Assembly: GCA_030603635.1 (NCBI GenBank)
Contig: JAUVXK010000003.1
Coordinates: forward strand, 1-64,000
Source of the DNA: Burkholderiales bacterium
GTDB lineage: Bacteria; Pseudomonadota; Gammaproteobacteria; Burkholderiales; Burkholderiaceae_C
Length of the DNA stretch: 64,000 bases
Direction: 5' to 3'
The position numbers and the translations under genes were made by a program. The notes under the pieces were generated by a model. That model saw nothing but the letters and a program-made list of their open reading frames with translations, searched no databases and was not told where the DNA came from. Of the stretch, positions 14,545 to 43,032 are shown piece after piece (position 1 is the stretch's first letter; each line of letters opens with the position of its first letter).

Positions 14545-14883
14545 ATGCCCACCATCACCATTCTGCCACACCCCGAATACTGCCCCAAGGGCACCCAGAT
14601 CAAGGCGCTGAGCGGCACCACGCTGTGCGAAGCCCTGCTCGACAACGACATCGAAATCGAGCACGCCTGTGACATGAGCTGTGCCTGCACCACCTGCCAC
14701 GTGATCGTGCGCCAGGGCTTCGAGACGCTTAACGAAGCCACCGAGGACGAGGAGGACCTGCTCGACAAGGCCTGGGGTCTGGAGCCGCAATCCCGCCTGA
14801 GCTGCCAGGTGCAGCTGGGCAGCAACGACCTCACCATCGAGATTCCGCGATACACCATCAACCACGCTCGCGAGCAGCACTGA
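14545..14883 (+). CDS. fdx: 2Fe-2S ferredoxin (Isc type)
   Basis: CDMSCACTTCHVIV cluster motif; distal gene of the isc operon. Confidence 0.96.
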   Translation: MPTITILPHPEYCPKGTQIKALSGTTLCEALLDNDIEIEHACDMSCACTTCHVIVRQGFETLNEATEDEEDLLDKAWGLEPQSRLSCQVQLGSNDLTIEIPRYTINHAREQH

Positions 14884-14889
14884 ACACTC

Positions 14890-15597
14890 ATGCGCCAGAT
14901 CGTCCTGGATACCGAAACCACCGGCCTGTCGGCACAGGACGGTGACCGCATCATCGAGATCGGTTGCGTGGAACTGCTCAACCGAAAGCTGACCGGCAAC
15001 AACCGACACTACTACCTCAATCCCGAACGCGACATTCATGAAGACGCGCTGCGGGTGCACGGGATCTCCCTCGACTTCCTGGCTGACAAGCCCAAGTTCG
15101 CCGAGGTCGCCAATGACCTGTTGGACTACCTGGCCGGTGCGGAACTGATCATCCACAACGCACCGTTCGACCTGGGCTTCCTCGATGAGGAGTTCCGCCG
15201 TCTCGGGCATGGCCGCACTCGCCAACTGGTGAGTGGCGTGATCGACACCCTGGTCATGGCCAAGGAAATGTTCCCCGGCAAACGCAACGGTCTCGACGCC
15301 CTGTGCGACCGCCTGGGCGTGGACAACTCAGGGCGTACCCTGCACGGCGCCTTGCTGGATGCCGAATTGCTGGCCGACGTGTACATCAACCTGACCCGGG
15401 GCCAGGATGCCTTGGTCATGGAGATCGATGCGCCGGGCAGTACCCAAGCCGAAGTCCGGTCGCTCGACCTTTCCCGGTTCGAGTTGCCGGTGATCAAGCC
15501 CAGCGAACAGGAAACGCAGGCGCACGAGGCCTTGCTCGCCGACCTGGACAAGGCCAGCAAAGGAAAAACCGTGTGGCGTTCTCTGGAGGCAGCCTGA
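14890..15597 (+). CDS. dnaQ: DNA polymerase III epsilon subunit
   Basis: MRQIVLDTETTGLSAQDGDRIIEIGCVEL (Exo I DxE), HNAPFDLGFLDEEF, HGALLDAELLADVY. Confidence 0.96.
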   Translation: MRQIVLDTETTGLSAQDGDRIIEIGCVELLNRKLTGNNRHYYLNPERDIHEDALRVHGISLDFLADKPKFAEVANDLLDYLAGAELIIHNAPFDLGFLDEEFRRLGHGRTRQLVSGVIDTLVMAKEMFPGKRNGLDALCDRLGVDNSGRTLHGALLDAELLADVYINLTRGQDALVMEIDAPGSTQAEVRSLDLSRFELPVIKPSEQETQAHEALLADLDKASKGKTVWRSLEAA

Positions 15598-15623
15598 TTC
15601 CGATATATAATTTAAGACTTGAT

Positions 15624-15698
15624 GGGTGATTAGCTCAGCGGTAGAGCACTGCCTTCACACGGCAGGGGTCACATGTTCGATCCATGTATCACCCACCA
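15624..15698 (+). tRNA. tRNA-Val(CAC), first copy, CCA encoded
   Basis: Acceptor GGGTGAT/ATCACCC, anticodon arm CTGCC-TTCACAC-GGCAG, T arm ACATG-TTCGATC-CATGT, ACCA end. Confidence 0.95.
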
Positions 15699-15708
15699 TC
15701 CCCATACC

Positions 15709-15783
15709 GGGTGATTAGCTCAGCGGTAGAGCACTGCCTTCACACGGCAGGGGTCACATGTTCGATCCATGTATCACCCACCA
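15709..15783 (+). tRNA. tRNA-Val(CAC), second copy, CCA encoded
   Basis: Identical 75 nt to the first copy; 10-bp spacer. Confidence 0.95.
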
Positions 15784-15788
15784 CATGC

Positions 15789-15822
15789 AAAAGGGCTCAG
15801 GGGCGATCCTGAGCCCTTTTGT
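15789..15822. terminator. Bidirectional intrinsic terminator
   Basis: AAAAGGGCTCAG-gggcgatc-CTGAGCCCTTTT; terminates the tRNA unit and the convergent minus-strand operon. Confidence 0.85.
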
Positions 15823-16172
15823 CAAAAGATGGTCTGCTTGTCCATCTTGTGCGACACGATGAAGTCCACCACCTTCTGCTCACGCTTGTTGGCACGCATG
15901 CAGTGGCCTTTCTGGAACTTGTCGGTCACCCAGATCACGAATTTGGCCCAGCGTCTTTCATGCCGAACCCGCCAGGCATGCGAAGAAATCGATTCCCAAG
16001 CATAGCCATTGAACACCGTGGCGTTCACAAAGTGGTCCAGCGCCCGAACACCCGCTCGGCCACGTGAATTGGGCCCGAAAATGCCCACCCACCAAAGAAT
16101 CAGGTAACCCACAATCGCCAGTGGTACCACGGCGCACATGAGCACGAATCCGGCCATTCGCTCCTTGATCAC
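15822..16172 (-). CDS. Small conserved hypothetical protein with N-terminal TM helix
   Basis: 116 aa, start overlaps the P450 stop by 4 nt; LDHFVNATVFNGYAWESISSHAWRVR...WVTDKFQKGHCMRANKREQ. Confidence 0.75.
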   Translation of the reverse strand: MIKERMAGFVLMCAVVPLAIVGYLILWWVGIFGPNSRGRAGVRALDHFVNATVFNGYAWESISSHAWRVRHERRWAKFVIWVTDKFQKGHCMRANKREQKVVDFIVSHKMDKQTIF

Positions 16173-17557
16173 ACGTCTCTCCTGCGATGCAACTCCAGCC
16201 TTACGCCATTGGCGGATCGTATGGTCAGGCGTCCTACAGGTTGCGGCACATGCCCGGGCACTGCACGCAGTTCATACAGCCGCACCAGGCTGGCGAGTAT
16301 CAAGGTGGCCTCTTGGAGCGCAAAAGCCGCCCCGAGGCACACGCGGGGCCCCATCCCAAAAGGCAGATAGCCCTGTTTTAGGGCTTCGCGTGAGCCCTCA
16401 TTGGCGTAGCGGTCTGGGTTGAAGGCATCTGGTTCGGGCCAGATCTCCCGGTGCCGCTGAATCAGCCACGGTGCCACCACCACGGTTGCTCCTTCTTTGA
16501 CTTGTTTGTCACGCATTGGGCAATTTGTGGATGCCTGGCGGGCCATGAACCCCACGGGAGGAAACAGCCGCAAGGTTTCACGAAACACGTTGCGGGTCAG
16601 TTCCAAGGCCTTCATGTCAGCCACTGCGGCAGGTCGGTCACCCAGTTGCGCGTGCACCTCATCGTGCATGCGTTGCTGCACCTCGGGGGCATTGGCCAAA
16701 AGGTGTGCGGCCCAGGTCAAGGCACTGGCCGATGTTTCGTGGCCAGCCAGGAACAACATGGCCACCTGGTCCACCAGTTCCTTGAACGCAAAGGGTTGGC
16801 CTGTGCGCGGGTCGGTGGATTGCAGAAACGATTGAAGGATGTCGCTGTGCCGGGCAGGGTGGCCAGCCACATGAGCCTCGTAGCGGGGGCGTATCAGTTT
16901 TTCCAGCAAGCCACGGATCTCGCGCGCCGCTCGTCGGCTGCGCCATACGTCCCACGGCCACACCAGCCAGCGCACCCCGTAAATTGATGGCAGCAACAAG
17001 CGCGGGGCGAGTGCCTGGAAGCGCGCAAACGCCTCAAAAATCCGGCGTGCGTCCTCGCCTTCCATCGGGACCGAGAAGATGGTCCGAAAAATGATGTCAG
17101 CCGTCACGTGGGTCATCTCCACTTCCACGTCGTGCTCCGCACCATCGGGCAGGGCCGCCAGACGCTGCATCATGTCTTCGGTGGCTGCCCGCATGACCGG
17201 GAAGGCCACGTTGAGCCGAGCCTGGGCAAACGCCGGGTTCATCATGTCGCGTTGGCGCCGCCATTGTTCACCGTTGGTCGTGAAGATGCTTTCTCCCAGC
17301 AAGGGCTCCAGCGCCTCGCCAAGCAAAGGGCTTTTCGGAAAGTCAGAGGCATCGGTGTCCATCACCTTCCGAACAAGTGCCGGGTTGTTCACCATGTACA
17401 GGTCCAGGCCCGGCAAGTGCACTTCGCCCATCTGCATCCGGTAACTGCGTTCGTACAGGGCGTCCAGCCAAGAGCGGCGGGCGCTGAAGAACATCAGCAA
17501 GGCCGATGCCTTGCTTTTGCGCGGTTGAGGGTAATGGGGGCAGAAATGGGAGCTCAC
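16169..17557 (-). CDS. Cytochrome P450 (paralog A)
   Basis: I-helix LFLAGHETSASALTW, ExxR ETLRLFP, heme loop FGMGPRVCLGAAFALQEA. Confidence 0.95.
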   Translation of the reverse strand: MSSHFCPHYPQPRKSKASALLMFFSARRSWLDALYERSYRMQMGEVHLPGLDLYMVNNPALVRKVMDTDASDFPKSPLLGEALEPLLGESIFTTNGEQWRRQRDMMNPAFAQARLNVAFPVMRAATEDMMQRLAALPDGAEHDVEVEMTHVTADIIFRTIFSVPMEGEDARRIFEAFARFQALAPRLLLPSIYGVRWLVWPWDVWRSRRAAREIRGLLEKLIRPRYEAHVAGHPARHSDILQSFLQSTDPRTGQPFAFKELVDQVAMLFLAGHETSASALTWAAHLLANAPEVQQRMHDEVHAQLGDRPAAVADMKALELTRNVFRETLRLFPPVGFMARQASTNCPMRDKQVKEGATVVVAPWLIQRHREIWPEPDAFNPDRYANEGSREALKQGYLPFGMGPRVCLGAAFALQEATLILASLVRLYELRAVPGHVPQPVGRLTIRSANGVRLELHRRRDV

Positions 17558-17558
17558 T

Positions 17559-18899
17559 TCAGCGTCTCTTCAACAGAACCCGTATCCCCTTGTCGGAGCG
17601 AACGGTCAGGCGGCCAACGACGCGTGGCCTGTGCTCGGGAATGGATGCAAAATCAAAGTGCAGAAGCAACTGGCTGAGGATGAGTGCGGCTTCCTGCATC
17701 GCAAAGGCGGCACCAATACAGGCACGGGCCCCAAGGCTAAAGGGCAGGTATGTCCCTCTCAGAGGGGCTTTTGAACGCTGTGGGCCAAAGCGTTCAGGGT
17801 CAAAGGCGTCGGGGTTTGTCCACCAGCGACGGTGGCGGTGCATCAACCAAGGAAATACCAGCAACGCATCGCCCTTGCGTACTTTCGTTCCGCGGATTTC
17901 CTGGTCTTCCATGGCCTCGCGAGGAAAGTAGCCTACGGGCGGATACAAGCGAAGCACCTCGCGGAACATCGCGCTTACTCGCTCCATGGACTTCAAATCG
18001 TCTGGATTTGCGAACGCCTCGGCCCTCAGGCGCTCTTGCAATGCAGGGCTTTCGCCCAGCAGGTACAGGCACCAGCTCAAGGCACTGGCTGACGTTTCGT
18101 GACCTGCCAGGAACAGCATGCAGATCTGGTCGAGCACCTCTATTTCGCTCAGGGTTGTGCCATCTTCAGGGTCAACCGCCAGTCGCAGGCCGGCCAGAAT
18201 GTCCGCTGCCTGTTGCTCGTCCTCACGGGTGCGGTCAGCAAAACGCTGCCTGACCTTGCTTGCCAGAAAATCACGGATTACCCGGGCTTCTCGCTCACGG
18301 CTGCGGTTGAACCACATTGGCGGCAACCTACACAACTTCAGTACCGTGGCTTTCTGTGACAAATTCTGGTAGCGAACAAATGCGCCAAAAAGAGTGTCCG
18401 CTTCCTCTGCCGTCAAAGGTTCGGAAAAAATGGTCCTATACACAATATCCGCAGTCACATGGGTCATCACTGCGTCGACGTCGAGTGCGGTTGGCGAGGG
18501 CAGGATCTGCATGCGCTGAACCATGTCAGCGCATGCCGCCTGCATCAAAGGCAGTACCAGGTTGAGCCGGGCGGCTCCAAAGGCTTGGTCGAGCATGCGG
18601 CGCTGACGCTGCCACACTGCCCCGTTGGTGGTGAACGGGCTGGAACCAATCAATGGCTCCAGTGCTTCATGCATGAAGCGGTGTTTGGGGTAACGGTGGG
18701 GCTCCTTCACCAGGATACGTTCTACCCAAGCCGGGTCGTTCACCACAAATACCCTCATGGCAGGCAGCCAGAAATGCCCCAGCAGCATCTCGTAACTTCT
18801 GGCTGTCAGGGCATCTAGCCAGGAGTCGGCTACTCGCATAAATCCCAGCAGCCCGATCCGTTTTCGAGCCAGTGGTTCAGGCCTGGGAGGTATGTGCAT
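17559..18899 (-). CDS. Cytochrome P450 (paralog B)
   Basis: I-helix LFLAGHETSASALSW, ExxR EVLRLYP, heme loop FSLGARACIGAAFAMQEA. Confidence 0.95.
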   Translation of the reverse strand: MHIPPRPEPLARKRIGLLGFMRVADSWLDALTARSYEMLLGHFWLPAMRVFVVNDPAWVERILVKEPHRYPKHRFMHEALEPLIGSSPFTTNGAVWQRQRRMLDQAFGAARLNLVLPLMQAACADMVQRMQILPSPTALDVDAVMTHVTADIVYRTIFSEPLTAEEADTLFGAFVRYQNLSQKATVLKLCRLPPMWFNRSREREARVIRDFLASKVRQRFADRTREDEQQAADILAGLRLAVDPEDGTTLSEIEVLDQICMLFLAGHETSASALSWCLYLLGESPALQERLRAEAFANPDDLKSMERVSAMFREVLRLYPPVGYFPREAMEDQEIRGTKVRKGDALLVFPWLMHRHRRWWTNPDAFDPERFGPQRSKAPLRGTYLPFSLGARACIGAAFAMQEAALILSQLLLHFDFASIPEHRPRVVGRLTVRSDKGIRVLLKRR

Positions 18900-20091
18900 G
18901 TGGCAACAGGCTCCATTGGGTCGAGAAGGGGTGTGGTCCGTAGAGAACGTCCATCAGGTGAAAGTTGCCGGGCCGGTCAGGGGTCATCAGATACAGGAAG
19001 TGCGTAAGCAGCTTGTCTTTTTTGATCTGCTGCCAATGTGCTTCTTCGTACATCTGGAAGAACTTGGCCGGGAACAGCAACGGATTGGGTGCGCCGGCGT
19101 GAGGCACCCCGGATCTGACCAGCGGGTGTGCGTTGTAAAAGCACAGCGGGTCGATGCGCGACGTCACATCCACCCACAGGAGCCGGGTGTCAAACGACAG
19201 CTTTCGCAGCGTTTCGCGAAACGCGTGGGCCCTGGGCACCATGGCCACGAAGGGGTAGCACTGTCCCAGTGTCAGCATCCGGGTTCTCCGGTCTGCCAGC
19301 ATCTGCTGCCAGCGCTTATCGTTCAGCAGCATTTCCACTGCTTCCACCATCACCAGCGTACCAACGCTGTGCCCCAGCAGCACCACCTCGTCCACAGGGT
19401 CGGCCTGCTGTGCCTGCACCATCTGCTCCACCCATTGGTGGGTTCTCTGTTCCAGGCCGGCAATGGGGCCTCGGCCCATCAAGATGATGAAGTGAAAAAT
19501 TCGCAGCAGCCAGAACAGACCCTTGCTGGCTCCGTACCCCCAAGCCGCAGCCACGGTACCTGCAGCCAAGACCCAGATGGCGCCAAGTACAAAGCCATGC
19601 GCAGAAGGCACCCAGACAGCCGTTAGCCAGTGGCCCAAACCCCCAAGCAACAGCCCCATCAATAGGGTGCCCAGCAGATAGACAGCGGGAAGGACGCCCG
19701 TCACAAACGCCGTTTTGTAGATGCTGCGCGTCCGCTTCAGACTCACGTCTGCCAGTATTCCCCGATAGGTTCGGAAAAACTCCAGCAACAGCGTCCATGG
19801 GTTGCGGCTCCAGTGGGCGCGAATGATGTCGTCCCAACCCATGAACACATGTTCGGTCACCACATGGGGGCCTGCATCTGTGTCGGAGGGCTTCCAATGT
19901 ACCTGCCATTGGGCCAGTCCGCCTGGCATTTTGCGCCTGCGGCCTACCTCGAGCACACCGCCCTGTGGTTGGGTCTTCGAGGCCTCCTGCCGCGTCAGTC
20001 GATGGTAGTAAGCCGCACCACGCGGATCAAAGCCGCTGAAATAATGCACCCTCCTACGCTGCACTCCCTGCATGTCTTTGGTTTCAATCAC
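18877..20091 (-). CDS. Membrane-associated alpha/beta-hydrolase-fold protein
   Basis: VHYFSGFDPRGAAYYHRLTRQEA; TM helices about residues 130-220; nucleophile elbow LLGHSVGTLV. Overlaps P450 B by 23 nt. Confidence 0.75.
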   Translation of the reverse strand: MIETKDMQGVQRRRVHYFSGFDPRGAAYYHRLTRQEASKTQPQGGVLEVGRRRKMPGGLAQWQVHWKPSDTDAGPHVVTEHVFMGWDDIIRAHWSRNPWTLLLEFFRTYRGILADVSLKRTRSIYKTAFVTGVLPAVYLLGTLLMGLLLGGLGHWLTAVWVPSAHGFVLGAIWVLAAGTVAAAWGYGASKGLFWLLRIFHFIILMGRGPIAGLEQRTHQWVEQMVQAQQADPVDEVVLLGHSVGTLVMVEAVEMLLNDKRWQQMLADRRTRMLTLGQCYPFVAMVPRAHAFRETLRKLSFDTRLLWVDVTSRIDPLCFYNAHPLVRSGVPHAGAPNPLLFPAKFFQMYEEAHWQQIKKDKLLTHFLYLMTPDRPGNFHLMDVLYGPHPFSTQWSLLPHAHTSQA

Positions 20092-20156
20092 ACCCGGTTT
20101 TCCAGTTGAAGGGCTGGTACACCGTCAAATTTTCTCATACGTCGCGTATCGCGGCA

Positions 20157-21254
20157 TCAGCCCAGGTAGGCTGTGGCGAGAATTCGTGCCTTTCGCCACT
20201 GTCTGCGCCACCAACCCGTCTTTAGCCGGTGCAATTGACCGGTTTCCTCCAAACGCTGCCGGGTTTCTCGCAGCCGGTGCAGGACGGCCATGCAGGTGGT
20301 GTACCCTTTGAGCTCCCAATCCCAATAGATGGGATAGCGAAGCAGGGTGCCGGCCACCAGTTCGTCCAGTTCCAGTACCCGCGAGCGGCGGGCCAGGGCA
20401 GGGTGGCCGGTGAGGTGGTCTCGGGTCAGTCCCCAGCCGGCGTAAAACGGCATGCCGTATGTCACCACCTCTTTGTGGCGCAACAACGCGTCAAATCCCG
20501 TCAAGGACGTCATGGTGTGTACGGCATCGCAGGCGTCCAGGCAGCTCACCACCGAGGCATCGGTTTCCACATGGTCGGCCCAACGGCTTGCTTGTTCCAA
20601 CGCCAGGCACCCACGCCGGTTGCCGCTCATCACGTCTGGGTGTGGCTTGTAGACCAGGAACGCATCGGGTTCGGCCTGGCGTACCGCTTCCAGCAATGCG
20701 GCGTTGGTTCGAATGTCTGCGCAGCCCAGTCGTATGGAGGCATCGTCTTCCACTTGTCCGGGTATCAGCACCACCTTGCGGTCAGTCGTGGGCCAACGAA
20801 GGGCGTGGCGGGGCTCCAGGTTGTACTTGGTCAATCCATGGGCCACCATGAACTCCCTTGCCTCTTGGGCCGCTTGCAGTTCTTGTGGCGTGAAATGGGC
20901 TTCCGCCAACACCTGTTCCAGGGCACTCGGTTGGGTGGGGTCAAAATAAATGCCCACAGGGTCCAGGACCAGCGACAGGGGGCGAATGAGGTCTGAACCC
21001 AGACCGACCGAGCGCACAAAGCCGTCTTCCAGCCGCAGCAGCGTGCTTCCCGTTGCAACGGCCAGTTCCTGCAGTCCTTTGGGAGGGATGGCACCCCAGA
21101 AGGCCAGCGTATCACCAGGAACTGGCGAGAGACTGGAAGCCACCTTTGCAGATGGTACAAAAAACACCCTTTCAGGGTGCAAGGAGAGCATGGGTTTCAG
21201 ATTGGCTGCCTTCCAGCGCCTGAAACCCACACAGATCATTCTGGTGGGCAGCAT
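20157..21254 (-). CDS. KpsC C-terminal-module-like beta-Kdo transferase
   Basis: MICVGFRRWKAANLKPML, LEDGFVRSVGLGSDLIRPLSLVLDPVGIYFDPTQPSALE, YKPHPDVMSGNR, MTSLTGFDALLRHKEVVTYGMPFYAGWG. Confidence 0.85.
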   Translation of the reverse strand: MLPTRMICVGFRRWKAANLKPMLSLHPERVFFVPSAKVASSLSPVPGDTLAFWGAIPPKGLQELAVATGSTLLRLEDGFVRSVGLGSDLIRPLSLVLDPVGIYFDPTQPSALEQVLAEAHFTPQELQAAQEAREFMVAHGLTKYNLEPRHALRWPTTDRKVVLIPGQVEDDASIRLGCADIRTNAALLEAVRQAEPDAFLVYKPHPDVMSGNRRGCLALEQASRWADHVETDASVVSCLDACDAVHTMTSLTGFDALLRHKEVVTYGMPFYAGWGLTRDHLTGHPALARRSRVLELDELVAGTLLRYPIYWDWELKGYTTCMAVLHRLRETRQRLEETGQLHRLKTGWWRRQWRKARILATAYLG

Positions 21255-21269
21255 CGATCAGCAGAAAAG

Positions 21270-21299
21270 AACAGCAAAAGAGCGCCCTGGGGCGCTCTT
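21270..21299 (-). terminator. Intrinsic terminator/attenuator hairpin
   Basis: Minus-strand AAGAGCGCC-CCAG-GGCGCTCTT followed by TTGCTGTTCTTTT. Confidence 0.7.
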
Positions 21300-21327
21300 G
21301 GACATCAAGCCACTAAGGTGCAAGACA

Positions 21328-21855
21328 TCAGAACTTCATGCCGACGCCGATCGTGTAGCCATGGACCTTCAGGCCTTGCTTGCTGAAATAGTTCATGTAA
21401 TCGGCATTCAGGCTCCAGGTGGGGTTGAGCTGATAGCTCAGGCCCATGCCGTAGGCGAAATCGGTGGCGGAACGCGAACCCGCATTGCCGCTGGTGCTGG
21501 AAGCAGCCATTTTGCTGCGGGCCCAGCCCACACGGCCGAAGAGTTCCACATTTTCACTCACCTTGACTCTGGGCTTCAAGAACAGGCCAAACGAATTCTT
21601 CACTTTGGCCGTGACGGTGCTGGTGCCTGTGTTGACGCTGCTGTCGCTCAAGCCCAAACCCAGGATGCCTTCGGCGGCGAGGAATTCGTTCACCTCGTAA
21701 CCCAGAACGAAACGCATGGCGTCTGGCTTGACGGTGAAGCCGTTGGCCTTGGCCTTGAGGCCGCTATAACCTACTTCGGCGTACAGGCCTTGCGCCTGAG
21801 CACCTGCCGCCACCACGCCCAGCGCGACGACCACCAACCATTGACGAGCTTTCAT
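21328..21855 (-). CDS. Small outer-membrane beta-barrel protein with signal peptide
   Basis: MKARQWLVVVALGVVAAGAQAQGLYAEVGYSG...; alternating strands; terminal ...TIGVGMKF. Confidence 0.8.
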   Translation of the reverse strand: MKARQWLVVVALGVVAAGAQAQGLYAEVGYSGLKAKANGFTVKPDAMRFVLGYEVNEFLAAEGILGLGLSDSSVNTGTSTVTAKVKNSFGLFLKPRVKVSENVELFGRVGWARSKMAASSTSGNAGSRSATDFAYGMGLSYQLNPTWSLNADYMNYFSKQGLKVHGYTIGVGMKF

Positions 21856-21974: not shown

Positions 21975-22250
21975 TTAGCGGTCTTCTCTGGTATGCCACA
22001 ACCGCAACACGTAGATGATCGAATCCTGAAGTTCGTAGCGAACCTCGTACTGCCCGACCAGAATTCGCCGTACCTCGCGCGGCTCGAACTGGAAGAGTTG
22101 CTCGCCGATGCGGGGGTTGGTCAGCAGAATGGTGGGGGCCTTGGTCAACGCCTGCACCGCCCGTGCGGCGGCGTGCTTGTTCAACGGAGCCAGGAATTCA
22201 TACAAGCGCGCCAAATCGGAGAGCGCCTTGCTGGTCCACTTCAGCTCCAT
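21975..22250 (-). CDS. RelE/ParE-family toxin
   Basis: MELKWTSKALSDLARLYEFLAPLNKHAAARAVQAL...RRILVGQYEVRYELQDSIIYVLRLWHTRED. Confidence 0.88.
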   Translation of the reverse strand: MELKWTSKALSDLARLYEFLAPLNKHAAARAVQALTKAPTILLTNPRIGEQLFQFEPREVRRILVGQYEVRYELQDSIIYVLRLWHTREDR

Positions 22251-22516
22251 CAGCGCGGCACCGGCAGTGGTTGGTCAGTGCCAAGGCTCTCTGCCCACGC
22301 TTGCACGGCTTGGTGATCGATGACGTGGCCGGCGTCTACGTCAGCCAGCGCTTCCTGGGTCAGTCGGTCGCGCTCTTCTTCCTGGGCGATCCAGGCGGAA
22401 AGCGCCTGCTTCATGACCCAGCCGCGCGAACGTTCAAGCTTTGAAGCTATCTGATCTACCTTGTCGGCCAGCGGAAGCGGCACGTGTGCTGTCAGCACTT
22501 TGGTGGTTGCGGTCAT
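22250..22516 (-). CDS. RHH (ParD/CopG-like) antitoxin
   Basis: N-terminal RHH TTKVLTAHVPLPLADKVDQIASKLERSRGWVMKQALSAWI; TGATG overlap with toxin start. Confidence 0.85.
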   Translation of the reverse strand: MTATTKVLTAHVPLPLADKVDQIASKLERSRGWVMKQALSAWIAQEEERDRLTQEALADVDAGHVIDHQAVQAWAESLGTDQPLPVPR

Positions 22517-22651: not shown

Positions 22652-23662
22652 CTAATCGATCAAGAGGCTCGCCATTCGCCGCTGCCGCACCAGCCAGTCG
22701 ATCACGTCGAGGATGGTGCCGCGCTGGTGGGTGACGGGGTTGAGGTAGCGGGCGTAGTGCAGGTAAGCGGCGGCAAACAGTTCCGGCACCGTGCGCTGGC
22801 GGGTGCGGCGGGGGAAATGGCTGCGGGGCAGGCGGTCTTGCGTGGCGCCCCAGCCGGCGTACCAGGGGGCGCCAAAGCAGGTGACGGGTTTGCCCGCCAG
22901 CAAGGCCTCAAAACCCATGGTGGAGGTGGCCACGTACACTGCGTCCATGTGCTGCAGCAGGCTCAGCGGTTCTATGGCCTGGCGCAGCACCACCACGCGC
23001 TCCCTGTTTTGCAGGTGGGCAAAGTGCCCCCTCTTGCGGCCTGCGGACACCTCGGGGTGGGTTTTCACGTAGACCGTGGCCTGTAGGTGCTCGGTCAGGG
23101 CGGCTTGCAGCATGGCCTCGAAGGTGGCCGCGCTGGCGCCGCCCAGGGCAATGCTCAGGTCGCCGGCTGTCTGGTCCACCACCAGCACGCGCTCACGGTC
23201 TGCCGGGCGCAGCAGGGGCTGGCCCAACGCCGCCTCCACCACCGCCAAAGGCGGCGCGTGGTTGTACTTGCTCAGGCCGTGGTGCAGTATGCGTGCACGC
23301 GCTTCAGCGGCCAGGGCTTCCTGGCCGGCTAGCACATCGGTATCGCTCTGCAGCAGGATTTCCAGTGCGCTGGGGCGGGTGCTGTCGTAGTAAATGCCCA
23401 CGGCGTCCACCACAATGGACAATGGCGGAAAACGGTCACCCGTGCCGTAGGAGCGCAGGAAGCCGTCTTCCAACGAAAAGAAGGGTGTGCCATGCTGTTG
23501 TGCAAGTTGCCTCGCGCGCCTGGCATACGGGCTGCAGCCCCAGCCCAGGGTGCCGTCCAGCCCGCTGGCGGGCCATAGCCAGTGGTGGCTTACCACGGCT
23601 CCCAGCAACGGGCCCAGCAGTGGGACACTAGCCAGCCCGCTGTTGAAAATGCCCAAGCGCAT
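22652..23662 (-). CDS. KpsC N-terminal-module-like beta-Kdo transferase
   Basis: MRLGIFNSGLASVPLLGPLLGA, LEDGFLRSYGTGDRFPPLSIVVDAVGIYYDSTRPSALE, VYVATSTMGFEALLAGKPVTCFGAPWYAGWG; TGATG overlap with upstream gene. Confidence 0.85.
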   Translation of the reverse strand: MRLGIFNSGLASVPLLGPLLGAVVSHHWLWPASGLDGTLGWGCSPYARRARQLAQQHGTPFFSLEDGFLRSYGTGDRFPPLSIVVDAVGIYYDSTRPSALEILLQSDTDVLAGQEALAAEARARILHHGLSKYNHAPPLAVVEAALGQPLLRPADRERVLVVDQTAGDLSIALGGASAATFEAMLQAALTEHLQATVYVKTHPEVSAGRKRGHFAHLQNRERVVVLRQAIEPLSLLQHMDAVYVATSTMGFEALLAGKPVTCFGAPWYAGWGATQDRLPRSHFPRRTRQRTVPELFAAAYLHYARYLNPVTHQRGTILDVIDWLVRQRRMASLLID

Positions 23663-24639
23663 CAAGCCACCATCTCCATGATTTGCCGTAGCCGGTGCGC
23701 CCAGGTGTGGTGCTTCAATACATATTCAGCCCCCGCCAGGGCTCTGTCGCGGTCGTGCCGGCTGAGCCCATCTCGCGCAATCCGCGCCATCACGTCATTG
23801 GCCTCTTCGGCGTTGTGCACCACGGTGCAGTAATCGGCAAAGTAACGGCTTACCGCCGGAGATGGGTTGGTCACGGCCAGGCCGCCGCAGGCAATGATCT
23901 CCACCAGCCGGCGCGAATACATCGATGCTGAGTCTTCCACCGTGTTCACATTGATCGACACCGCGTGCCGGCGGTAAATGTCAGCGGTCTTCTCGTAAGC
24001 CACGGCTGGGCGCACGTCCATCCAGGGCAGCGGCGGGTAGCGATAGCGCTCGGCCTTGCGGCCGGAATTGCGGTCATGCACCGTCAGGCCCAAGGGTTGC
24101 GCTGCCTGAAACAACATGTCTTGCCACTCGCGCCGCCGGTCGTGAATGTGCCGGCTGTAGCTGCCCACAAAGTTGGCCCGCCGCAGCGAAGGCTCGCCCG
24201 CCACCGGGTGGTGAATGGCGGGCTGCACCGCAAACGGCAGCACCCCCAGCTTCACGTTGGGCCCCAGCCGCTCGCGGTATCGCGGCAAGCAGTTCTCGTC
24301 GACCGTTAGCACCACATCGAACAGCGACGCGCTGTCGATGAAGCGCTCGAAATGCACCCCGTCTTCCTTGTTCCAGAACACAGTGGGAATGCCTTTGTCC
24401 CGTGCGCGCGCCACCAAGCGCCGCAGCGCGTTGTTGTTGCGCGAAGGCTCGTCTGGGTAGGACGCGATCTTGTATTTCCAACTGTTCCAGCGACCGAGCC
24501 AGGCGGATTCGACGAATAGTAGGTCGGGGCTAAAAAACTGAAATCTATATTCGGCAAGGTTTGATGAAATGGATTTTGTCCAGCATTGTTTGCTGATCGA
24601 TTTTGCTGTAAGGGGGTCGCAGACGGCAATTATATGCAT
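23662..24639 (-). CDS. CgeB-like glycosyltransferase
   Basis: LLFVESAWLGR..., GIPTVFWNKEDGVHFERF, NFVGSYSRHIHDRRREW, C-terminal RRLVEIIACGGLAVTN. Confidence 0.82.
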   Translation of the reverse strand: MHIIAVCDPLTAKSISKQCWTKSISSNLAEYRFQFFSPDLLFVESAWLGRWNSWKYKIASYPDEPSRNNNALRRLVARARDKGIPTVFWNKEDGVHFERFIDSASLFDVVLTVDENCLPRYRERLGPNVKLGVLPFAVQPAIHHPVAGEPSLRRANFVGSYSRHIHDRRREWQDMLFQAAQPLGLTVHDRNSGRKAERYRYPPLPWMDVRPAVAYEKTADIYRRHAVSINVNTVEDSASMYSRRLVEIIACGGLAVTNPSPAVSRYFADYCTVVHNAEEANDVMARIARDGLSRHDRDRALAGAEYVLKHHTWAHRLRQIMEMVA

Positions 24640-24659: not shown

Positions 24660-26852
24660 TTAGTCGAGGGTTGATGGATTAGCCATCGAATTTAATGCAT
24701 TGTTTAGTGTAAAGAGCTTTGCCTCTTTGCTCCCGACTGGCATTACGCAGAAACTGTTCCGGGTCGAGGAGAAGTCAACAATGTTTGGCTTTTGGTCAAA
24801 TTTGTATGCGTACCTTATGCCAGCCTCAAAGCAGTTTTGATCGATCCACCATTGTTTGGATGATTTTGTTGTCAGTGATTCGGCGGCTCTTGCAATGCGC
24901 TGGGTAATGAATAGTCCATTTTGTGTCGGGTAAAACAAGGCGAACCCTCCGGTATATCTTTCCCAAGGGGCGATGCCACCCTTCAAGACGCGTGAGCAGA
25001 TATCCGCGCCCTTATTGTTCTCCACGATGGGTGAGAGAGGCTTGAGTATTAATGAGTCGAGATCCATTACAAAAATAGGAAGTCCAATGCTCATTAGTAA
25101 TTCATGCAAAACGCAGAAGCGCAAGAGGGATGCAATTGGCGCTTCGTTCTCTCCGCAATCCAGCCCGACGACTGAGGCTGATGTGCTTTTGGCGCCCCAG
25201 ATCTTAAGCAGTTGATTAGCATCATTGGCTTCTCCGCTGGTGATTAGAATATGCAGGTGAGCTTCATGAGCACAATTTAAAGAGAATGACTTGACTATGA
25301 ACTCGCCATACGTTCTGAGATAGTTTAGGTCGCAGGATACACTAACAATATATTTTGCATCGTTGCTCGGTTGCGAATTGCACACGATCGGCGTGCCAAG
25401 GATTTTGGGTGTGTAGTTTTCGTTGTACGCCTCAAGCGGTTTTGTGTCGGTCACTACCGTAGAGACAGGGATGGTCAGGTACGGCGTGAAGTCTGGACTT
25501 TTTGTGTCGAGGAATTTTTTGATTTCACTTTCGTAGCCATCAAAGTCTCCATTGTCGTATTTAACGATTCCTTTGAATATGTTTGCGATATTTGCAACTT
25601 GTTTGTCGATGCATGCCGAATGAATTTCATCTATTCGGCGTAGCGTATCCTCGGGGCGGTGGTTTGAAACGGTGCCCCTGCAGAGATAGATGAAGGCTTC
25701 GAGCGATTGTTTTCTTTTGAAAGCCTCGGTTGCTGCGACTAACAGTTCTGAATTGAACGAGTTGTTCCAAAGTTTCACCATACTACAGATTTTTAATAGC
25801 GGCCAATCGGCTTGCTTATTCAATTCTGCCGCAGCGTAAAGAAGCTCTCTTGCTTCTTTATAGTTGACGGTATCTTCAGGCGTTCGGGTATATTTGATTT
25901 TTGATGCGGCGCTGATTCCGGCGTCTAGTGTCGTTTTGTAGTCATTTTTTTGCGGGGGTGAATTTTTGTCATCGTCGATTTTCGCGATCAGGGTTGAGGG
26001 TGTTCGTGTATGGTGACTCCACCCTCGCAGTAGCGCGCTCTTGATTATTTTGATTGCGACTGAAGTCGTAAGTGGCTTATGGCCAGCAGATTCGGCTCTG
26101 CACGTAACTGATAAGTCGCCGACAACCTCTAGAATTGGACGAATATTCCTGATTTCTGTCAAAAATGTGATGTGCTCGCTACATGCGGGATCAGCATCAT
26201 TTGTGATGATCTCAATCGATGGCATGCTCCTTTGCTCAATAAATCGATCTATTACATTAATCTGTTCTTTTCTTTTTGTATAGAAGTTATTTATTGGACA
26301 TTTGTTGAAGTGAGTTTCCTCTAATTGGCGCAGTGAGGAGCTGATGTAGTATTTCCTGAGATCTATTTGTGGCACCTCTGCTATTACCAGCGATTCAGGA
26401 ATGTGTGCGCCAGACATCAGTGCGCCAAAGCCGCCCATAGATGAGCCGTACAAAACAATTTTGTTTGGCTCAATGCTGAGTTTGCTTGCGAGAATTTTTA
26501 TAAAGTCGGCAGTTATCCGAAAATAATCGTGCCCTGCTTTTGATTGAAACCAGTTGGCATGTAAAGTGGATTCATGTAGGGCTGGATCGCTCAAGGAGAT
26601 GGTGTGGGCTTTTTCAAGCTGGTAGGCCCACGTCCATCGATGAAAAACAGGATTTAACCGCTCGATATTTGCCTGTTGTGCAGATGGGAATAGGCATATT
26701 AAATGCTCGGCTTTTTGTGGGAATCTTGCAAAGCAATCAATTATAGCTCCACTTTCTAACTCTTGCCTTATTTGAAGTTGCTGGCCATTGCTGTGCGTGT
26801 CGGAGTTGAACTCTTCGAGTGTCAGATTTAGTGGATTTAGTTCGATCGACAT
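24660..26852 (-). CDS. Alpha/beta-hydrolase plus GT-A-like glycosyltransferase fusion
   Basis: 730 aa; elbow IVLYGSSMGGFGAL in N-terminal third; C-terminal third VSVSCDLNYLRTYGEFIVKSF...LPIFVMDLDSLILKPL (DxD-like). AT-rich. Confidence 0.65.
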   Translation of the reverse strand: MSIELNPLNLTLEEFNSDTHSNGQQLQIRQELESGAIIDCFARFPQKAEHLICLFPSAQQANIERLNPVFHRWTWAYQLEKAHTISLSDPALHESTLHANWFQSKAGHDYFRITADFIKILASKLSIEPNKIVLYGSSMGGFGALMSGAHIPESLVIAEVPQIDLRKYYISSSLRQLEETHFNKCPINNFYTKRKEQINVIDRFIEQRSMPSIEIITNDADPACSEHITFLTEIRNIRPILEVVGDLSVTCRAESAGHKPLTTSVAIKIIKSALLRGWSHHTRTPSTLIAKIDDDKNSPPQKNDYKTTLDAGISAASKIKYTRTPEDTVNYKEARELLYAAAELNKQADWPLLKICSMVKLWNNSFNSELLVAATEAFKRKQSLEAFIYLCRGTVSNHRPEDTLRRIDEIHSACIDKQVANIANIFKGIVKYDNGDFDGYESEIKKFLDTKSPDFTPYLTIPVSTVVTDTKPLEAYNENYTPKILGTPIVCNSQPSNDAKYIVSVSCDLNYLRTYGEFIVKSFSLNCAHEAHLHILITSGEANDANQLLKIWGAKSTSASVVGLDCGENEAPIASLLRFCVLHELLMSIGLPIFVMDLDSLILKPLSPIVENNKGADICSRVLKGGIAPWERYTGGFALFYPTQNGLFITQRIARAAESLTTKSSKQWWIDQNCFEAGIRYAYKFDQKPNIVDFSSTRNSFCVMPVGSKEAKLFTLNNALNSMANPSTLD

Positions 26853-26865
26853 GTTTGGTTCCTTT

Positions 26866-31606: not shown

Positions 31607-32443
31607 TTAATTATTCAGCTTGCGTTTGCTGCCACTGCGCCATCCGTTCGGCAATACTTTGCGGGCTGGGCAAGAGAGATGCGTAGTCTTGCGGCAGTTG
31701 GGGCACGATGCTGTAACTGGCCACGCCCAATGGGCGGCCAGCGGTGCGCAAGGCGTATTCGACGACGGTTTTGTTTTTACTGCGGCAGATGATGATGCCG
31801 ATGGGTGAGGCTCGGTGAGGAACTGGCGCAGGTTGGCCACCAAGGCCTGTTCAAGCTCACGCTCACCGTGTTCTTCGGCCAGTTCCAGGAAGTCGAAGGT
31901 GTAGTGGTCTTTGACCGCCAAGGCGGCCTGGGCCTTGATTTCTTCCGGCAGGGCTTGGTCGAAGTTGGTCTGGTTGAGCAGGTATTTCTGGTAGCTCTGG
32001 TTGTCTATCTGGTGCTGAAGAACGGCCTTGGTCCAGCCAAAGCGGGCGGTGGCACGCAGGTAGAACTCGCGTTCCAGTGGGTCTTTTACCCGGGCGAGGA
32101 TGACGAGATTTTTGGCCCAGCTGATTTCTGCAACCAGTGGTTGCAGTTTTGGTTGCTCGCAATAGCTGCGGTAAAAGTCCAGAATATTCCACAAATTGCG
32201 TGCAGATAAACCGTTGCGGCCTGGAAACTCGGCTTGCAAGTCGCGCGCAAGCGTTTCCACCACGGCTTTGCCCCAACCTTGTTCTTCCTGTTTCTGGTGA
32301 ATGGCTTCGCCCATTTCCCAATACAGGGCCACGAGTTCGCGGTTAACCGCACGCAGCGCCTGGAACTGGCCCTGGCGAATGCTGGCCTTCAACTGGGCCA
32401 GAAACTCGCGATAACCTGGGGTAGGAACTGCGTCAGGCACCAT
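31607..32443 (-). pseudogene. DUF1016 (YhcG-like) nuclease relic: catalytic core deleted, then frameshifted
   Basis: N-terminal domain intact to ALVANLRQFLTEPHP; beyond about 31806 the native C-terminus IGIIICRSKNKTVVEYALRTAGRPLGVASYSIVPQLPQDYASLLPSPQSIAERMAQWQQTQAE* reads in another frame (stop at 31611). Confidence 0.87.
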
Positions 32444-37515: not shown

Positions 37516-39183
37516 TCAGAGCCCAAAGACGACTTTGGCGCTCACCGCTATTTGGTAAATGATTTGCGTCATGTCTTTCCAGAACTGGCGTTGTTTTTCA
37601 TCCACCTTGGGTAGCACCAGGATCTGGTCCCCAGGCTGCACGCGGATGCGGTCGAGGCTTCTGGGGTCTTCAGATTGCTCAAAGCTGCCGTCAAGCCGGG
37701 CCACCACAATTCGGGAATTGTCGGCCCGCTGGGTGTATCCGCCGGCGCGGCTGATGTAGTCCCTCAGCGTGAGTTGGGGTTGATGCGCCACGGCGTTGGG
37801 GAACAGCACTTCACCGTTGATGAGCACCAGGGCGTCTTTGGTGGGGATGCGGACGATGTCGCCGTTTTCCAGCATGATCTGGTCACGACCGGCTGCTTCG
37901 GCAATGAGCACCTGGCCCAGCGGCTCCACCTGCTTGGCACGCTCCACCCACTGCAGGGTGAGGTTGGCTTCTTCGGTGCGCAGGCGAGCTTCGTCGCTGC
38001 TGCCGCTGCGGGCCGTGAGCAGCGCGGCTTCCAGGCTGCGCAGGCTGGTGGCGAGCATGTCTTTTTGCCGCTGCTTCACGCTTTGGCGAAACAGCTGCAC
38101 GTTCTGGATTTGCGACCGTTCGTTCAGTTGAATGCGTTGCAACAGTTCACCCAGCTGGCTGCCATAGGGCAGCACATATTCTTGCGGGCTTTGGTGCTCG
38201 CCTTCCACCCGAACGGTGATGGTGCCGGGTTTTTTGTCGGCGGTGAATTCCACTTCGTCGCCATTGCCCACGGCCAACTGGCTGGCCTGGGCGAGTTCAT
38301 GGTATTCCACATTGCGCACAGTACCGGTGTTGCGAGTGATGCGCACATGGGTGGCAGCTGCTTGCGGTTTGGCCAACTGGGTGAGCTGGGGCAGGGGCAG
38401 CGTATTGCCTGTGAATTCAAAGCGTTTGGCATTGGCGGCCAAGCCATGGACCTTCACGGTGCTGGCCTTGGGCGGGACAAAGATCACGTCGCCCGTGGCC
38501 AGTTGCACCTGAGGCATGCGCCCGCTGAGCAGAAAGTCGTACAGGTTGACGGTGGCGCGAACTTGTTCACCGCGTTTGACCTGCAAGGCCAGGAAGGTGC
38601 CCCGGTCGGGGTCGATGCCGCCGGCCTGGTCGAGGTAGTGGAGCAGGCTGTCCATGCTGGTGCCACTGTACAAGCCAGGGCGTGGCACGAAGCCGCTCAC
38701 AAACACGCGCACGGGCTGGGCTTCGGCCAGGCTGGCGTAGCTGTTGACGTTGGCGCGGTACACGCGACCAAGGGCGGCAGCCACGGTGGCTTGCAAATCG
38801 GCGTTGCGCACGCCGCGCACCTGTACGGGCCCCACGTTAGGCACAAAAATGTTGCCCTGGGGGTCCACCACAAGGCTGGCGTCGAACTCGAAGGCGCCCC
38901 AGAGGCGGAGTTGCACCGTGTCGCCGGTAGCGACGAGGTAATCCGGGTTGAACACGGTGGCACCCTCGCGCGCAAAGGCACCGGTGAAGAGCTGGGCGCC
39001 GAACACATCGCTCACCATGGGGCGGAGCGGGGCGGCAGGAGCCGTGACGTGAGCGGGGGCCGTTGGCGGAGCCGGTGGCGTTTGGGCTTGGGTTGCCGTT
39101 GTGAACAGGCTCAGAAGCGTGACCAACCACGCCCTGCGCCAGGCAGCGAGATGGAGTAGGGGAGGCGAAGAGGGGGGAAGCAT
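37516..39183 (-). CDS. kpsD: Polysaccharide export outer-membrane protein (Wza/KpsD-like, SLBB)
   Basis: Signal peptide; YLVATGDTVQLRLWGAFEFDASLVVDPQGNIFVPNVGPVQVRG; SLBB segments. Confidence 0.88.
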   Translation of the reverse strand: MLPPSSPPLLHLAAWRRAWLVTLLSLFTTATQAQTPPAPPTAPAHVTAPAAPLRPMVSDVFGAQLFTGAFAREGATVFNPDYLVATGDTVQLRLWGAFEFDASLVVDPQGNIFVPNVGPVQVRGVRNADLQATVAAALGRVYRANVNSYASLAEAQPVRVFVSGFVPRPGLYSGTSMDSLLHYLDQAGGIDPDRGTFLALQVKRGEQVRATVNLYDFLLSGRMPQVQLATGDVIFVPPKASTVKVHGLAANAKRFEFTGNTLPLPQLTQLAKPQAAATHVRITRNTGTVRNVEYHELAQASQLAVGNGDEVEFTADKKPGTITVRVEGEHQSPQEYVLPYGSQLGELLQRIQLNERSQIQNVQLFRQSVKQRQKDMLATSLRSLEAALLTARSGSSDEARLRTEEANLTLQWVERAKQVEPLGQVLIAEAAGRDQIMLENGDIVRIPTKDALVLINGEVLFPNAVAHQPQLTLRDYISRAGGYTQRADNSRIVVARLDGSFEQSEDPRSLDRIRVQPGDQILVLPKVDEKQRQFWKDMTQIIYQIAVSAKVVFGL

Positions 39184-39195
39184 CTTGGGGTCCTG

Positions 39196-40299
39196 TCAGT
39201 CCTGATGGTCGCGCACAATGGCCAGCAACAGTTGCAGTACGCCCGCCAGCAGCATGGCCGCCAGGGCATACACGGCGGTGTTGTAGAGGCGGCGGGGTTG
39301 AAGAGGGTATTCGGGCAGGTTGGGGGCTTGGAGGACCTGGACTTTCTTGAGTGTGCGCGCGGCGTCTACCCGGCCACGCTCGAGCGATGTGAGAGCGGTG
39401 GTGAGCACCTGCTGCGCGAACTCGGCGTCGAGCTGCAAGCGCTGGAATTCTTCGACTGCGGTGTTGAGGGTGCCGCCCTGAGGGGCGGCAAGGCGTGCGC
39501 GCTCACGCGCGAGCTGGTTTTCCACGGCAGCAATCTGACTGTTTACCTCCACCAGTTGCGTGGCTTGTGGTTGCAGGAAGCTTTGCAGGCCGGTGCGGCG
39601 GGTTTGCAATTCGGCGAGCTGGCCTTCAAGCCGGGCCACGATGGCTGCGAAGTTTTCGGCGGTAGCCTGTGGAGACACCAGCCCCTTGCGGTTCTGGTAG
39701 GCGAGTAAGGCCGAACGGGTGGCTTTGACGCGTTCGTTGAGTTCCTGCACCTGCACTTCGAGGAACCGCACCTGTTCCTGGGCCAGTTCATGGCCCAGGG
39801 CGTTCATGTGGCGTTCGCCTTCGGCCAGGAGGCGTGCCGCTATGGCCTGGGCCACTTCGGGCGTATAGGCCTGCGCACGGATGACGAGCACTCCGGCAAA
39901 TTCGTCCAGTTCGATGCTGACGCGCCGCATGAAGTAGCGGTGGAAGGTTTCGAGCGGGGCGTCGGTCTGCCAGAGGCGAGAAAGCCAGTCGCCATGGCTG
40001 CTGTAATGGGCGCGCAGTTGAAGTTCGGTGTCGAGGGTTTGCAGGATGTCAAGCGAGCGGAGGTGATCGCGCAGCAGGAGCTGGTCGGCCCGGGTGTTGC
40101 CAGTGGCACCGCCGAGCAGGCTGGCAAAGTCCATGGACTGACCGCTGGACAGATCAGCCCGGCTGAGGGTGACCCGGGCTTCCGAGACGAAGCGGTCGGC
40201 AGCACCCAGAAGCCAATAAAAACTGCTGAGCACTATGAAGCCTGTTGCAACCCAAAGGAAGGGGGCTTTGCGAAGCACCGATGAAATGGAGGAGCTCAT
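39196..40299 (-). CDS. kpsE: Capsule export inner-membrane protein KpsE-like
   Basis: Terminal TM helices; SEARVTLSR; periplasmic coiled coil; C-terminal PEYPLQPRRLYNTAVY. Confidence 0.88.
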   Translation of the reverse strand: MSSSISSVLRKAPFLWVATGFIVLSSFYWLLGAADRFVSEARVTLSRADLSSGQSMDFASLLGGATGNTRADQLLLRDHLRSLDILQTLDTELQLRAHYSSHGDWLSRLWQTDAPLETFHRYFMRRVSIELDEFAGVLVIRAQAYTPEVAQAIAARLLAEGERHMNALGHELAQEQVRFLEVQVQELNERVKATRSALLAYQNRKGLVSPQATAENFAAIVARLEGQLAELQTRRTGLQSFLQPQATQLVEVNSQIAAVENQLARERARLAAPQGGTLNTAVEEFQRLQLDAEFAQQVLTTALTSLERGRVDAARTLKKVQVLQAPNLPEYPLQPRRLYNTAVYALAAMLLAGVLQLLLAIVRDHQD

Positions 40300-40961: not shown

Positions 40962-41737
40962 AGAGCCACCAATCTGCGCTGGAAGCGTACATGCAGGGCG
41001 AGGCCTAAAAAGAGCACCACCAGGGTGAACCCATGCAAATAGGCCAGGCTGAGCTCGGGGACAGCATGGTAAAAAGGCGCAATGCCCGCGCGTACCCCTT
41101 CAACACCATGGGCAATGGGGTTGAACATGATCCATTCCCTCCATGGGTAGGGGATGGCGGACAAGGGGAAAATGACCCCGGAGATGAGCATGAGCGGCAT
41201 CATGAGCATACCGAGGATGTTGCCGAGTTCTGGCACCAGCTCGGCAGCGACAGAGGTCGCCAGGCCCCAGGCCATTCCAAGCCCCCAGAGCCCGACCAAG
41301 GCGCTGGCCACCGTGAGCGGGGCGTGCAACTGAAGCGGTATGCCCCATAGTCCTGCGCCTGTGAGCACGATGGCGGCCACGATGAACATGAGCAGGCCCT
41401 CCAGAAGGCCACGAACCAACACCGAATCAACGGGTTTGACCTGCCGGTAAGCATACAGTGCCTGGTTGGCTCCCACAGCGGCCTGCCCCTGGATCGCGGT
41501 TCGCCGGAACAAGAAGAAGGCCAGCATACCGGTGATGATCCAGAGGGCCGTGTCCATGCCACCCACGTGCCGCATGCGCAGGACGGTGAAGATGAACACG
41601 AAGAACGCCATGTGGGCGACAGGTTCCAGCAGGAGCCAGAACAGGGCTGCCCGGCGACCGAAGAGCCGCGAGACGGCTTCGCGCAGCAGCAGCGCACGCC
41701 AGACAGCGAGGGTGACTTGCCAGGGTGGGCGGGTCAT
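40958..41737 (-). CDS. kpsM: Capsule ABC exporter permease KpsM
   Basis: ABC-2 permease; LRMRHVGGMDTALWIITGMLAFFLFR; MFNPIAHGVEGVRAG. Confidence 0.93.
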   Translation of the reverse strand: MTRPPWQVTLAVWRALLLREAVSRLFGRRAALFWLLLEPVAHMAFFVFIFTVLRMRHVGGMDTALWIITGMLAFFLFRRTAIQGQAAVGANQALYAYRQVKPVDSVLVRGLLEGLLMFIVAAIVLTGAGLWGIPLQLHAPLTVASALVGLWGLGMAWGLATSVAAELVPELGNILGMLMMPLMLISGVIFPLSAIPYPWREWIMFNPIAHGVEGVRAGIAPFYHAVPELSLAYLHGFTLVVLFLGLALHVRFQRRLVAL

Positions 41738-43032
41738 GCCGACTGGCCTTCCCGGGGTGGCATGTGCCAGAGCAGGGGCTCGGTTGGCAGGCCGTAGACG
41801 TTGCAGGGTACCTGAGTGAGGTGGATGATCTGTGCCAGTAACGATGATGTTTCGGGTTCTGCTGGCGGGTGGTGGTGGGCCCAGAAGTCATTGAGCTCAC
41901 CACCGAAGGTCACGCCCGGTTGTTTGTAAAGCGCTTCGCCCATGACCATGAGTGGTTTGCGGTGCACGAGGCTTTGCATGCCCACCGTGCTGTTGATGAC
42001 CAGAACGCCCTGTGCATGGCGCACCAGCGTAGGGGTGTGCCCTTCGACCAAGGCTTGCACTCGGTTGGAAATGCCCAGCTCCCTGGCAAGGCTCCGAATG
42101 AAAGCGATATGACCGGGTCCCCCACGGGAAAAGGGATGCTGTTTGAAAACCAGTGTGGCTTGTGCCGGTGCATGCTGTGCGAAGGAGCACATGACTTCAA
42201 TGATGAAGTCGGTGTTTTCGGTAAAGCGGCTGTGATGGGTGATCTGAGAGTCACCGTCATGTTGCAAGGCGACGAGGAAGTAATGGTTGTTGGCGAGCAG
42301 GCGGACTTGGCGGTTATCGTGGAATTGGTGTATTTGCTTGCGCAGCCATGAACGCACCCAGTAGGCCGCATGCCGAGCGATGGATGTGGGTTTGTGATGG
42401 CTGTAGTGGGGGAACTCGGTAGACGCCCAACGCATGTGCAGGTAGTGGCGCATGGCAAAGAGGGCCATTTGCCTGAACTGGTGTTTGGTGGTGGGCGGGT
42501 GCTGCAGGGTTGGGGCGGCGTTCGCAGGTTCCCAACGGTAGCGCTTCAGCGTGGTGGAGTAGCCATTGACCCCACCCAATTCCATGGTGATGTAGCCAGG
42601 GCGGACATAGCCTTCTTCCAACACCACAATGGGGATGCCAGCCTGATTGGCCGCTTCAATGGCGTGGACATGGTAGAAGCGCGTTTGTCCGAACAGCACC
42701 ACGCAGCAGGGTTGGAGCGCTTGGAGTTGCTTTGCAATGAATGGTGCCCACTCCTCGGGTGGTGCCGTGTAGGTGATGGGTGCTATGCGGCGGGTGTCGG
42801 CCAGGTCGCCGCCTTGCAGGGCGATACGGTGCACACGGGTGCCACGTTCCTGCAGCCAAGCGGTGAGTCGATCAAAAAAGGGCCCTACGGGGCCCTGCAG
42901 GAGAAGCACCGTTCGAGACTGAGACAGTAACACCAGGGCCGGATTGATGGTTGTAAGTTCCTGATCGGATGGGGAGGACAAACAACGTCCGGTGGGCCCG
43001 TGGCGAGGCCCGGTGTCGATGATTCTGGCCAA
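41734..43032 (-). CDS. kpsS: Capsule linker beta-Kdo transferase KpsS-like (start uncertain)
   Basis: TVLLLQGPVGPFFDRLTAWLQERGTRVHRI; FGQTRFYHVHAIEAANQAGIPIVVLEEGYVRPGYITME; FKQHPFSRGG. Confidence 0.85.
   Translation of the reverse strand: MARIIDTGPRHGPTGRCLSSPSDQELTTINPALVLLSQSRTVLLLQGPVGPFFDRLTAWLQERGTRVHRIALQGGDLADTRRIAPITYTAPPEEWAPFIAKQLQALQPCCVVLFGQTRFYHVHAIEAANQAGIPIVVLEEGYVRPGYITMELGGVNGYSTTLKRYRWEPANAAPTLQHPPTTKHQFRQMALFAMRHYLHMRWASTEFPHYSHHKPTSIARHAAYWVRSWLRKQIHQFHDNRQVRLLANNHYFLVALQHDGDSQITHHSRFTENTDFIIEVMCSFAQHAPAQATLVFKQHPFSRGGPGHIAFIRSLARELGISNRVQALVEGHTPTLVRHAQGVLVINSTVGMQSLVHRKPLMVMGEALYKQPGVTFGGELNDFWAHHHPPAEPETSSLLAQIIHLTQVPCNVYGLPTEPLLWHMPPREGQSA

Follow-up and report, generated by a model that had tools for sequence, protein, structure and literature searches.

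Four genes on the minus strand of the window, as we call the whole 64,000-nucleotide stretch of DNA that was analysed, code for a membrane-anchored alpha/beta-hydrolase-like protein (18877..20091, 404 aa), the cytochromes P450 B (17559..18899, 446 aa) and P450 A (16169..17557, 462 aa), and a small protein with one TM segment (15822..16172, 116 aa). The hydrolase and P450 B genes overlap by 23 nt, P450 B and P450 A are separated by 1 nt, and P450 A and the small protein gene overlap by 4 nt (GTGA). These positions and junctions, as well as the motifs of the encoded proteins, are exactly as given in a preliminary description of this DNA. A GC-rich 14-bp hairpin with T's at its end (15788..15821, minus strand, -26.1 kcal/mol, z -6.0), which is a probable transcription terminator, lies directly 3' of the last stop codon. 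A sigma-70 scan of positions 15500-21500 found no promoter inside this region, which is consistent with a single transcript, but not proof of it. A tandem of two identical tRNA-Val(CAC) genes (15624-15783) adjoins the end of the block and is a possible integration site of the capsule island.

The preliminary description had placed the block beside a capsule locus. The nearness stands, but the genes are not merely beside it, since the hydrolase gene starts 65 nt past a KpsC gene on the same strand: the four-gene block is the tail of a group 2 (KpsMTEDCS-type) capsule locus. Both Kdo-transferase modules of KpsC are encoded on the minus strand, split over two proteins, a C-terminal-type module of 365 aa next to the block (20157..21254; PF05159, 7e-42; best PDB match KpsC, 6mgd, 3e-65) and an N-terminal-type module of 337 aa (22652..23665; PF05159, 1e-51; best PDB matches KpsC, 6mgb/6mgc, 2e-77). 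Separate KpsC modules have been termed unusual in Thermosulfurimonas dismutans (PMC10148158). Between the two modules lie a ParE-type toxin gene with its likely partner (22250-22516) and a gene for an outer-membrane beta-barrel protein. A KpsS-like Kdo transferase is encoded at the opposite end of the locus (41734..43032; PF05159, 2.5e-65), and from there the genes for the capsule ABC transporter proteins KpsM (40958-41737) and KpsT (40296-40961), matched by PF00005 and PF01061, for a KpsE-position protein (39196-40299), named by position and homology only, and for a KpsD-like export protein (37516-39183; Poly_export/SLBB), sugar and glycosyltransferase genes and the two KpsC modules all follow on the minus strand. 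With KpsS and KpsC recognised through PF05159, together with KpsMT and KpsD/KpsE, the run has the gene set of a group 2 capsule locus. The KpsD-like/KpsE-position pair (37516..40299) has homologs at L023, L071 and L073. A gene of the DUF1016/YhcG-like nuclease family (31607-32443) is located within the run, between UDP-sugar epimerase and dehydrogenase genes. The G+C content drops to about 0.50 at 24660-28000, with flanks of 0.58-0.65, in a segment spanning a 730-aa XcbB/CpsF-like protein and the end of a 1149-aa glycosyltransferase gene; by this composition these are likely to be recently acquired capsule-type genes.

Proteins encoded by the block

The hydrolase possesses an N-terminal FDPRG signature and a GHSVG motif with the predicted nucleophile Ser242, followed downstream by candidate residues Asp308/Asp314 and His364, and thus has the GxSxG nucleophile and the downstream Asp and His of the alpha/beta-hydrolase superfamily. 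Among 28 homologs, Ser242 is kept in 27 (one has Cys), Asp308 and Asp314 in all 28 and His364 in 27. All Pfam matches are below threshold (DUF676 with 16.0 bits, cut-off 20.3). As the model of the fold is of poor quality (mean pLDDT 62.5) and a PDB fold search with it returned chance-level matches only, none of them significant, the alpha/beta-hydrolase assignment rests on the motifs. Related plasmid genes are annotated as 'lipase' or 'alpha/beta hydrolase'. At L023 (9031-14720), Cys takes the place of the nucleophilic Ser (GHCVG), and the hydrolase and P450 genes are separated by one for a phytanoyl-CoA-dioxygenase-like protein. The hydrophobic stretch of the window protein, at about residues 127-186, is predicted to form a two-TM hairpin with K/R residues on both flanks and none in the loop, suggesting by the positive-inside rule that both soluble parts are cytoplasmic.

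Both P450s match the cytochrome P450 profile PF00067 (P450 A, 1.5e-75; P450 B, 1.5e-69) and contain the I-helix motif AGHETS ([AG]Gx[DE]T[ST]), ExxR and FxxGxRxCxG. The preliminary view that they are paralogs of each other is borne out by 43% identity, the shared motifs and the tree, which support a single module-associated family with P450 B as its divergent paralog. P450 A is closest to the P450 of nearly all Burkholderiales modules, with 53-78% identity to most relatives and 47-50% at L022/L023. P450 B forms a separate branch with only three carriers, the window, Hydrogenophaga (L007) and L074. As a general rule, the sequential oxidation by two P450s put forward in the preliminary description does not hold, since most related modules encode a single P450, the place of a second often being taken by a further hydrolase and a GT1-type glycosyltransferase; we rejected it as a defining feature because P450 B is found in only these three carriers. 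Neither P450 has an N-terminal membrane segment, and the coupled small protein has one. The best PDB sequence matches of both include the lipid- or fatty-acid-acting enzymes CYP102, CYP4, CYP46 and CYP97, from which the block P450s are distant, lack a reductase domain and are too far removed for a transfer of substrate. The earlier statement that no ferredoxin or reductase is adjacent is correct in that the operon contains no redox gene, with the qualification that a [2Fe-2S] ferredoxin gene of an isc operon is located on the plus strand at 14545-14883, about 1 kb beyond the last gene. Its surroundings look like a housekeeping neighbourhood, and we set it aside as a dedicated P450 partner since it sits with isc-type genes on the opposite strand.

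The small protein is hydrophobic in one N-terminal segment (residues 1-34), is 66-77% identical in the aligned related modules and has no match in Pfam or NCBIfam; its structure prediction is of low confidence (mean pLDDT 54.8). The profiles phrog_34710 and phrog_3342 match the window protein with E values of 1.1e-6 and 4.9e-5 and its Sphaerotilus ortholog with 8e-10 and 2e-8, respectively. Judged by these profiles, the small protein is distant kin of two phage protein families of unknown function. This kinship is visible through profiles only, as a tblastn search with the small protein returned no phage record directly. Within the phage family (L027, L028, L029; PHROGs 34710/3342), the pattern D..NA..G...E..SS.A.R...RW...HC is conserved.

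Conservation of the module and its association with capsule genes

The preliminary description had proposed looking for the block in other genomes and asking whether it tracks kps loci, and both searches gave a positive answer. The block is a conserved, translationally coupled module: the hydrolase is found with one P450 and the small protein in 20 Burkholderiales loci, the 4-nt overlap of the P450 and small protein genes (ATGA/GTGA) is kept in 15 of them, and the same array (BPRO_RS24650 to RS24635) follows a KpsC-like gene on plasmid 1 of Polaromonas sp. JS666, NC_007949.1. A scan of public genomes with the hydrolase led to Hydrogenophaga sp., Sphaerotilus natans and one MAG. Among 399 genomes of the order, strong matches (E<1e-60) to the hydrolase and to the small protein were found in exactly the same five genomes (p=1e-11), and the small-protein profile picked out 14 strong carriers among 301 genomes of the family, clearly apart from weak phage-like matches. 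Hydrolase, P450 and small protein genes lie together in every neighbourhood that was mapped, with the contig of L008 ending inside the P450 gene. The commonest order is hydrolase - P450 - small protein - second hydrolase; that of Hydrogenophaga sp. is KpsC - hydrolase - P450 B - SGNH/GDSL-like protein - P450 A - small protein. A GT1/GT28-type glycosyltransferase gene is frequently located before or behind the module in relatives, and the GT1-type enzyme beside the Polaromonas module is annotated with 'lipid glycosylation'. The GT1 gene had no match in the genome of the window or in six others, and it was dropped as a core gene because of its absence from the former. In the class sample, the module was not seen outside Burkholderiales.

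The association of the module with the capsule is shown by its co-occurrence with KpsC and KpsS. PF05159 (KpsC/KpsS-type) proteins are encoded in 46 of the 301 family genomes, and a strong KpsS match is found in 25. All 14 module carriers fall within the 46 (hypergeometric p=5.7e-13) and also within the 25 (p=1e-17). Counted by genus, 10 of 10 carrier genera fall within 34 of 141 (p=2e-7), and PF05159 was present in all 19 Burkholderiales carriers tested, including Hydrogenophaga and Sphaerotilus natans from other families. The module thus tracks capsule genes even when unlinked to them. Of the 20 loci with sufficient flanking sequence, 12 have the module at most about 10 kb away from kps genes and the other eight have it far from them (12/21 as computed, which includes the truncated L008). 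With random placement, well under one linked locus would be expected; if the target fraction is taken as 1.25-3%, the binomial probability is about 1e-13 or lower. In one genome (G156), the module is flanked by KpsS on one side and KpsC on the other. In a tree of KpsS, presence of the module requires six changes, at least four of which are forced by well-supported branches, indicating that module and capsule genes are not one inherited block and that their association came about repeatedly. No hydrolase match was obtained either for eleven genomes of the family that have a strong KpsS match and no module, in a search without an internal positive control whose profile finds the known carriers in a separate search. 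As E. coli-type capsules also function without the module, these results indicate that it is not required for capsule export.

Distant relatives of the hydrolase are encoded on alphaproteobacterial replicons. In Paracoccus, Pseudorhodobacter and others, the hydrolase gene is directly followed by a P450 gene from the same family, and no gene for the small protein is present. In the phylum sample, PF05159 was found in 13 of the 16 hydrolase-positive genomes outside Burkholderiales, and the three without it are among the weaker hydrolase matches. The 13 include all eight alphaproteobacterial genomes with the hydrolase-P450 tandem, each with KpsS/KpsC, a count that we take as supportive only. At L116 (Pararhizobium) and L123 (Bradyrhizobium), distant hydrolase relatives directly precede an isoprenylcysteine-methyltransferase-like gene in place of a P450 gene, which suggests a wider lipid-modifying family.

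A possible role at the lipid end of the capsule glycolipid

We propose that the block is a conserved accessory module of the group 2 (ABC-transporter-dependent) capsule pathway, in which it remodels the capsule glycolipid at its lipid end, and give this proposal about even chances. The preliminary description had read the nearness to kps genes as raising, though not showing, a lipid-anchor or surface-lipid role. The capsule link behind that reading is upheld by the co-occurrence, including that of the unlinked loci, and the anchor role is now the leading interpretation, with a substrate and chemistry that we infer. The capsule anchor is (lyso)PG in mono- or diacyl forms (PMC7694667, PMC10148158), and KpsS and KpsC act on (lyso)phosphatidylglycerol at the cytoplasmic face (PMC7694667, PMC10148158, PMC11666461). 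In our model, KpsS and KpsC build poly-Kdo on this lipid at the inner membrane, on its cytoplasmic side. There the hydrolase, anchored in the membrane and with its soluble parts predicted to be cytoplasmic, would cut or exchange an acyl chain of the capsule anchor or of the PG feeding it, and the P450 would hydroxylate a fatty chain, either of this lipid or of the acid set free. As a guess, the coupled small membrane protein might tether the soluble P450 to the membrane. In those relatives that encode it, the GT1/GT28-type glycosyltransferase could decorate the new hydroxyl, and electrons would be supplied by a generic ferredoxin or reductase encoded elsewhere. The choice of the Kdo-lipid and its acyl chains as substrate, the order of the reactions, the tether and the electron source are all parts of what we infer. 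More tentatively, and with less than even confidence, we speculate that the Kdo-capsule anchor is oxidatively remodelled by P450s and the hydrolase in many environmental proteobacteria, so that the PG anchor would be variable, hydroxylated and sometimes glycosylated and the hydrolase would be a candidate source of the lyso-form.

Alternatively, the product of the module could be a glycolipid or hydroxy-fatty acid distinct from the capsule anchor and of use to cells with a capsule or sheath. Fatty-acid P450s are paired with GT1 glycosyltransferases in sophorolipid-type pathways, a GT1 gene often adjoins the module, as do an acyl-CoA ligase gene and a metallo-beta-lactamase-fold gene at L068 and L072, and the eight unlinked loci would also be accounted for. 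We consider such a product rather unlikely, since the GT1 gene, unmatched in seven genomes, is not core, and since the strict co-occurrence with KpsS/KpsC and the insertion between the two would be unexpected for an independent product. That the P450s and the hydrolase tailor the polysaccharide or acyl substituents of the capsule repeat, and not the anchor lipid, would agree with the position of the block at the end of a capsule operon, and tailoring genes are common in capsule loci. However, the module is found with capsule loci of differing glycosyltransferase content and often unlinked, which fits a conserved terminus better than a serotype-specific sugar, and the hydrolase is membrane-anchored, making this reading improbable. 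Two hydrolases around one P450, as seen in many modules, could also point to a quality-control function, in which the hydrolase releases or recycles lipid-linked capsule and the P450 degrades the freed fatty acid; nothing specific speaks against it, but by the positive-inside reading the catalytic domain would be cytoplasmic and not where the exported capsule is, and we consider it still more improbable. Transposases, an integrase or a conjugative plasmid near some copies might suggest an unrelated detoxification or lipid operon hitchhiking beside capsule islands on mobile elements, which is very improbable given that the co-occurrence holds for kps-unlinked modules and across ten genera of the family.

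With the group 2 KpsMTEDCS pathway and its (lyso)PG-poly-Kdo anchor, the window shares KpsS, the split KpsC, KpsM, KpsT, KpsD-like and KpsE-position genes, whereas P450s, hydrolases of this family and the small protein are absent from the described systems found in the literature. A search of the open-access literature found no paper linking kps genes with P450s and none describing the module. In rhizobia, the genes rkpA and rkpGHIJ (rkp-1) make and modify a lipid specific to the K-antigen; they resemble our block in that additional genes of lipid metabolism serve a group-2-like capsule, but they are described as fatty-acid-synthase-like, whereas the block encodes a hydrolase and P450s (PMC3557214). 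For the Vi antigen, PMC9597891 describes a dedicated beta-hydroxyacyltransferase for the anchor, a likeness in that dedicated enzymes tailor a capsule lipid anchor by hydroxyacyl chemistry; the Vi antigen differs in being without KpsS/KpsC according to a review, and no P450 is mentioned (PMC12220298). In the barley Cer-cqu wax cluster, a lipase-type hydrolase and a P450 lead to hydroxylated aliphatics, but this is a plant cluster with a polyketide synthase, likened here by gene types and not by sequence (PMC4861019).

Taken together, the module is a new, testable accessory of a known capsule pathway. That a conserved hydrolase-P450 module was found only together with KpsS/KpsC points to a step of capsule-anchor maturation not yet described. 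Across Gram-negative capsules, the KpsS/KpsC glycolipid counts as highly conserved; both mono- and diacyl anchors have been described, in reports that name no enzyme for the difference. The module names candidate enzymes, and environmental, non-pathogenic organisms, in which anchor maturation can be studied. If our reading is true, this would be the first role for a P450 family without a known substrate.
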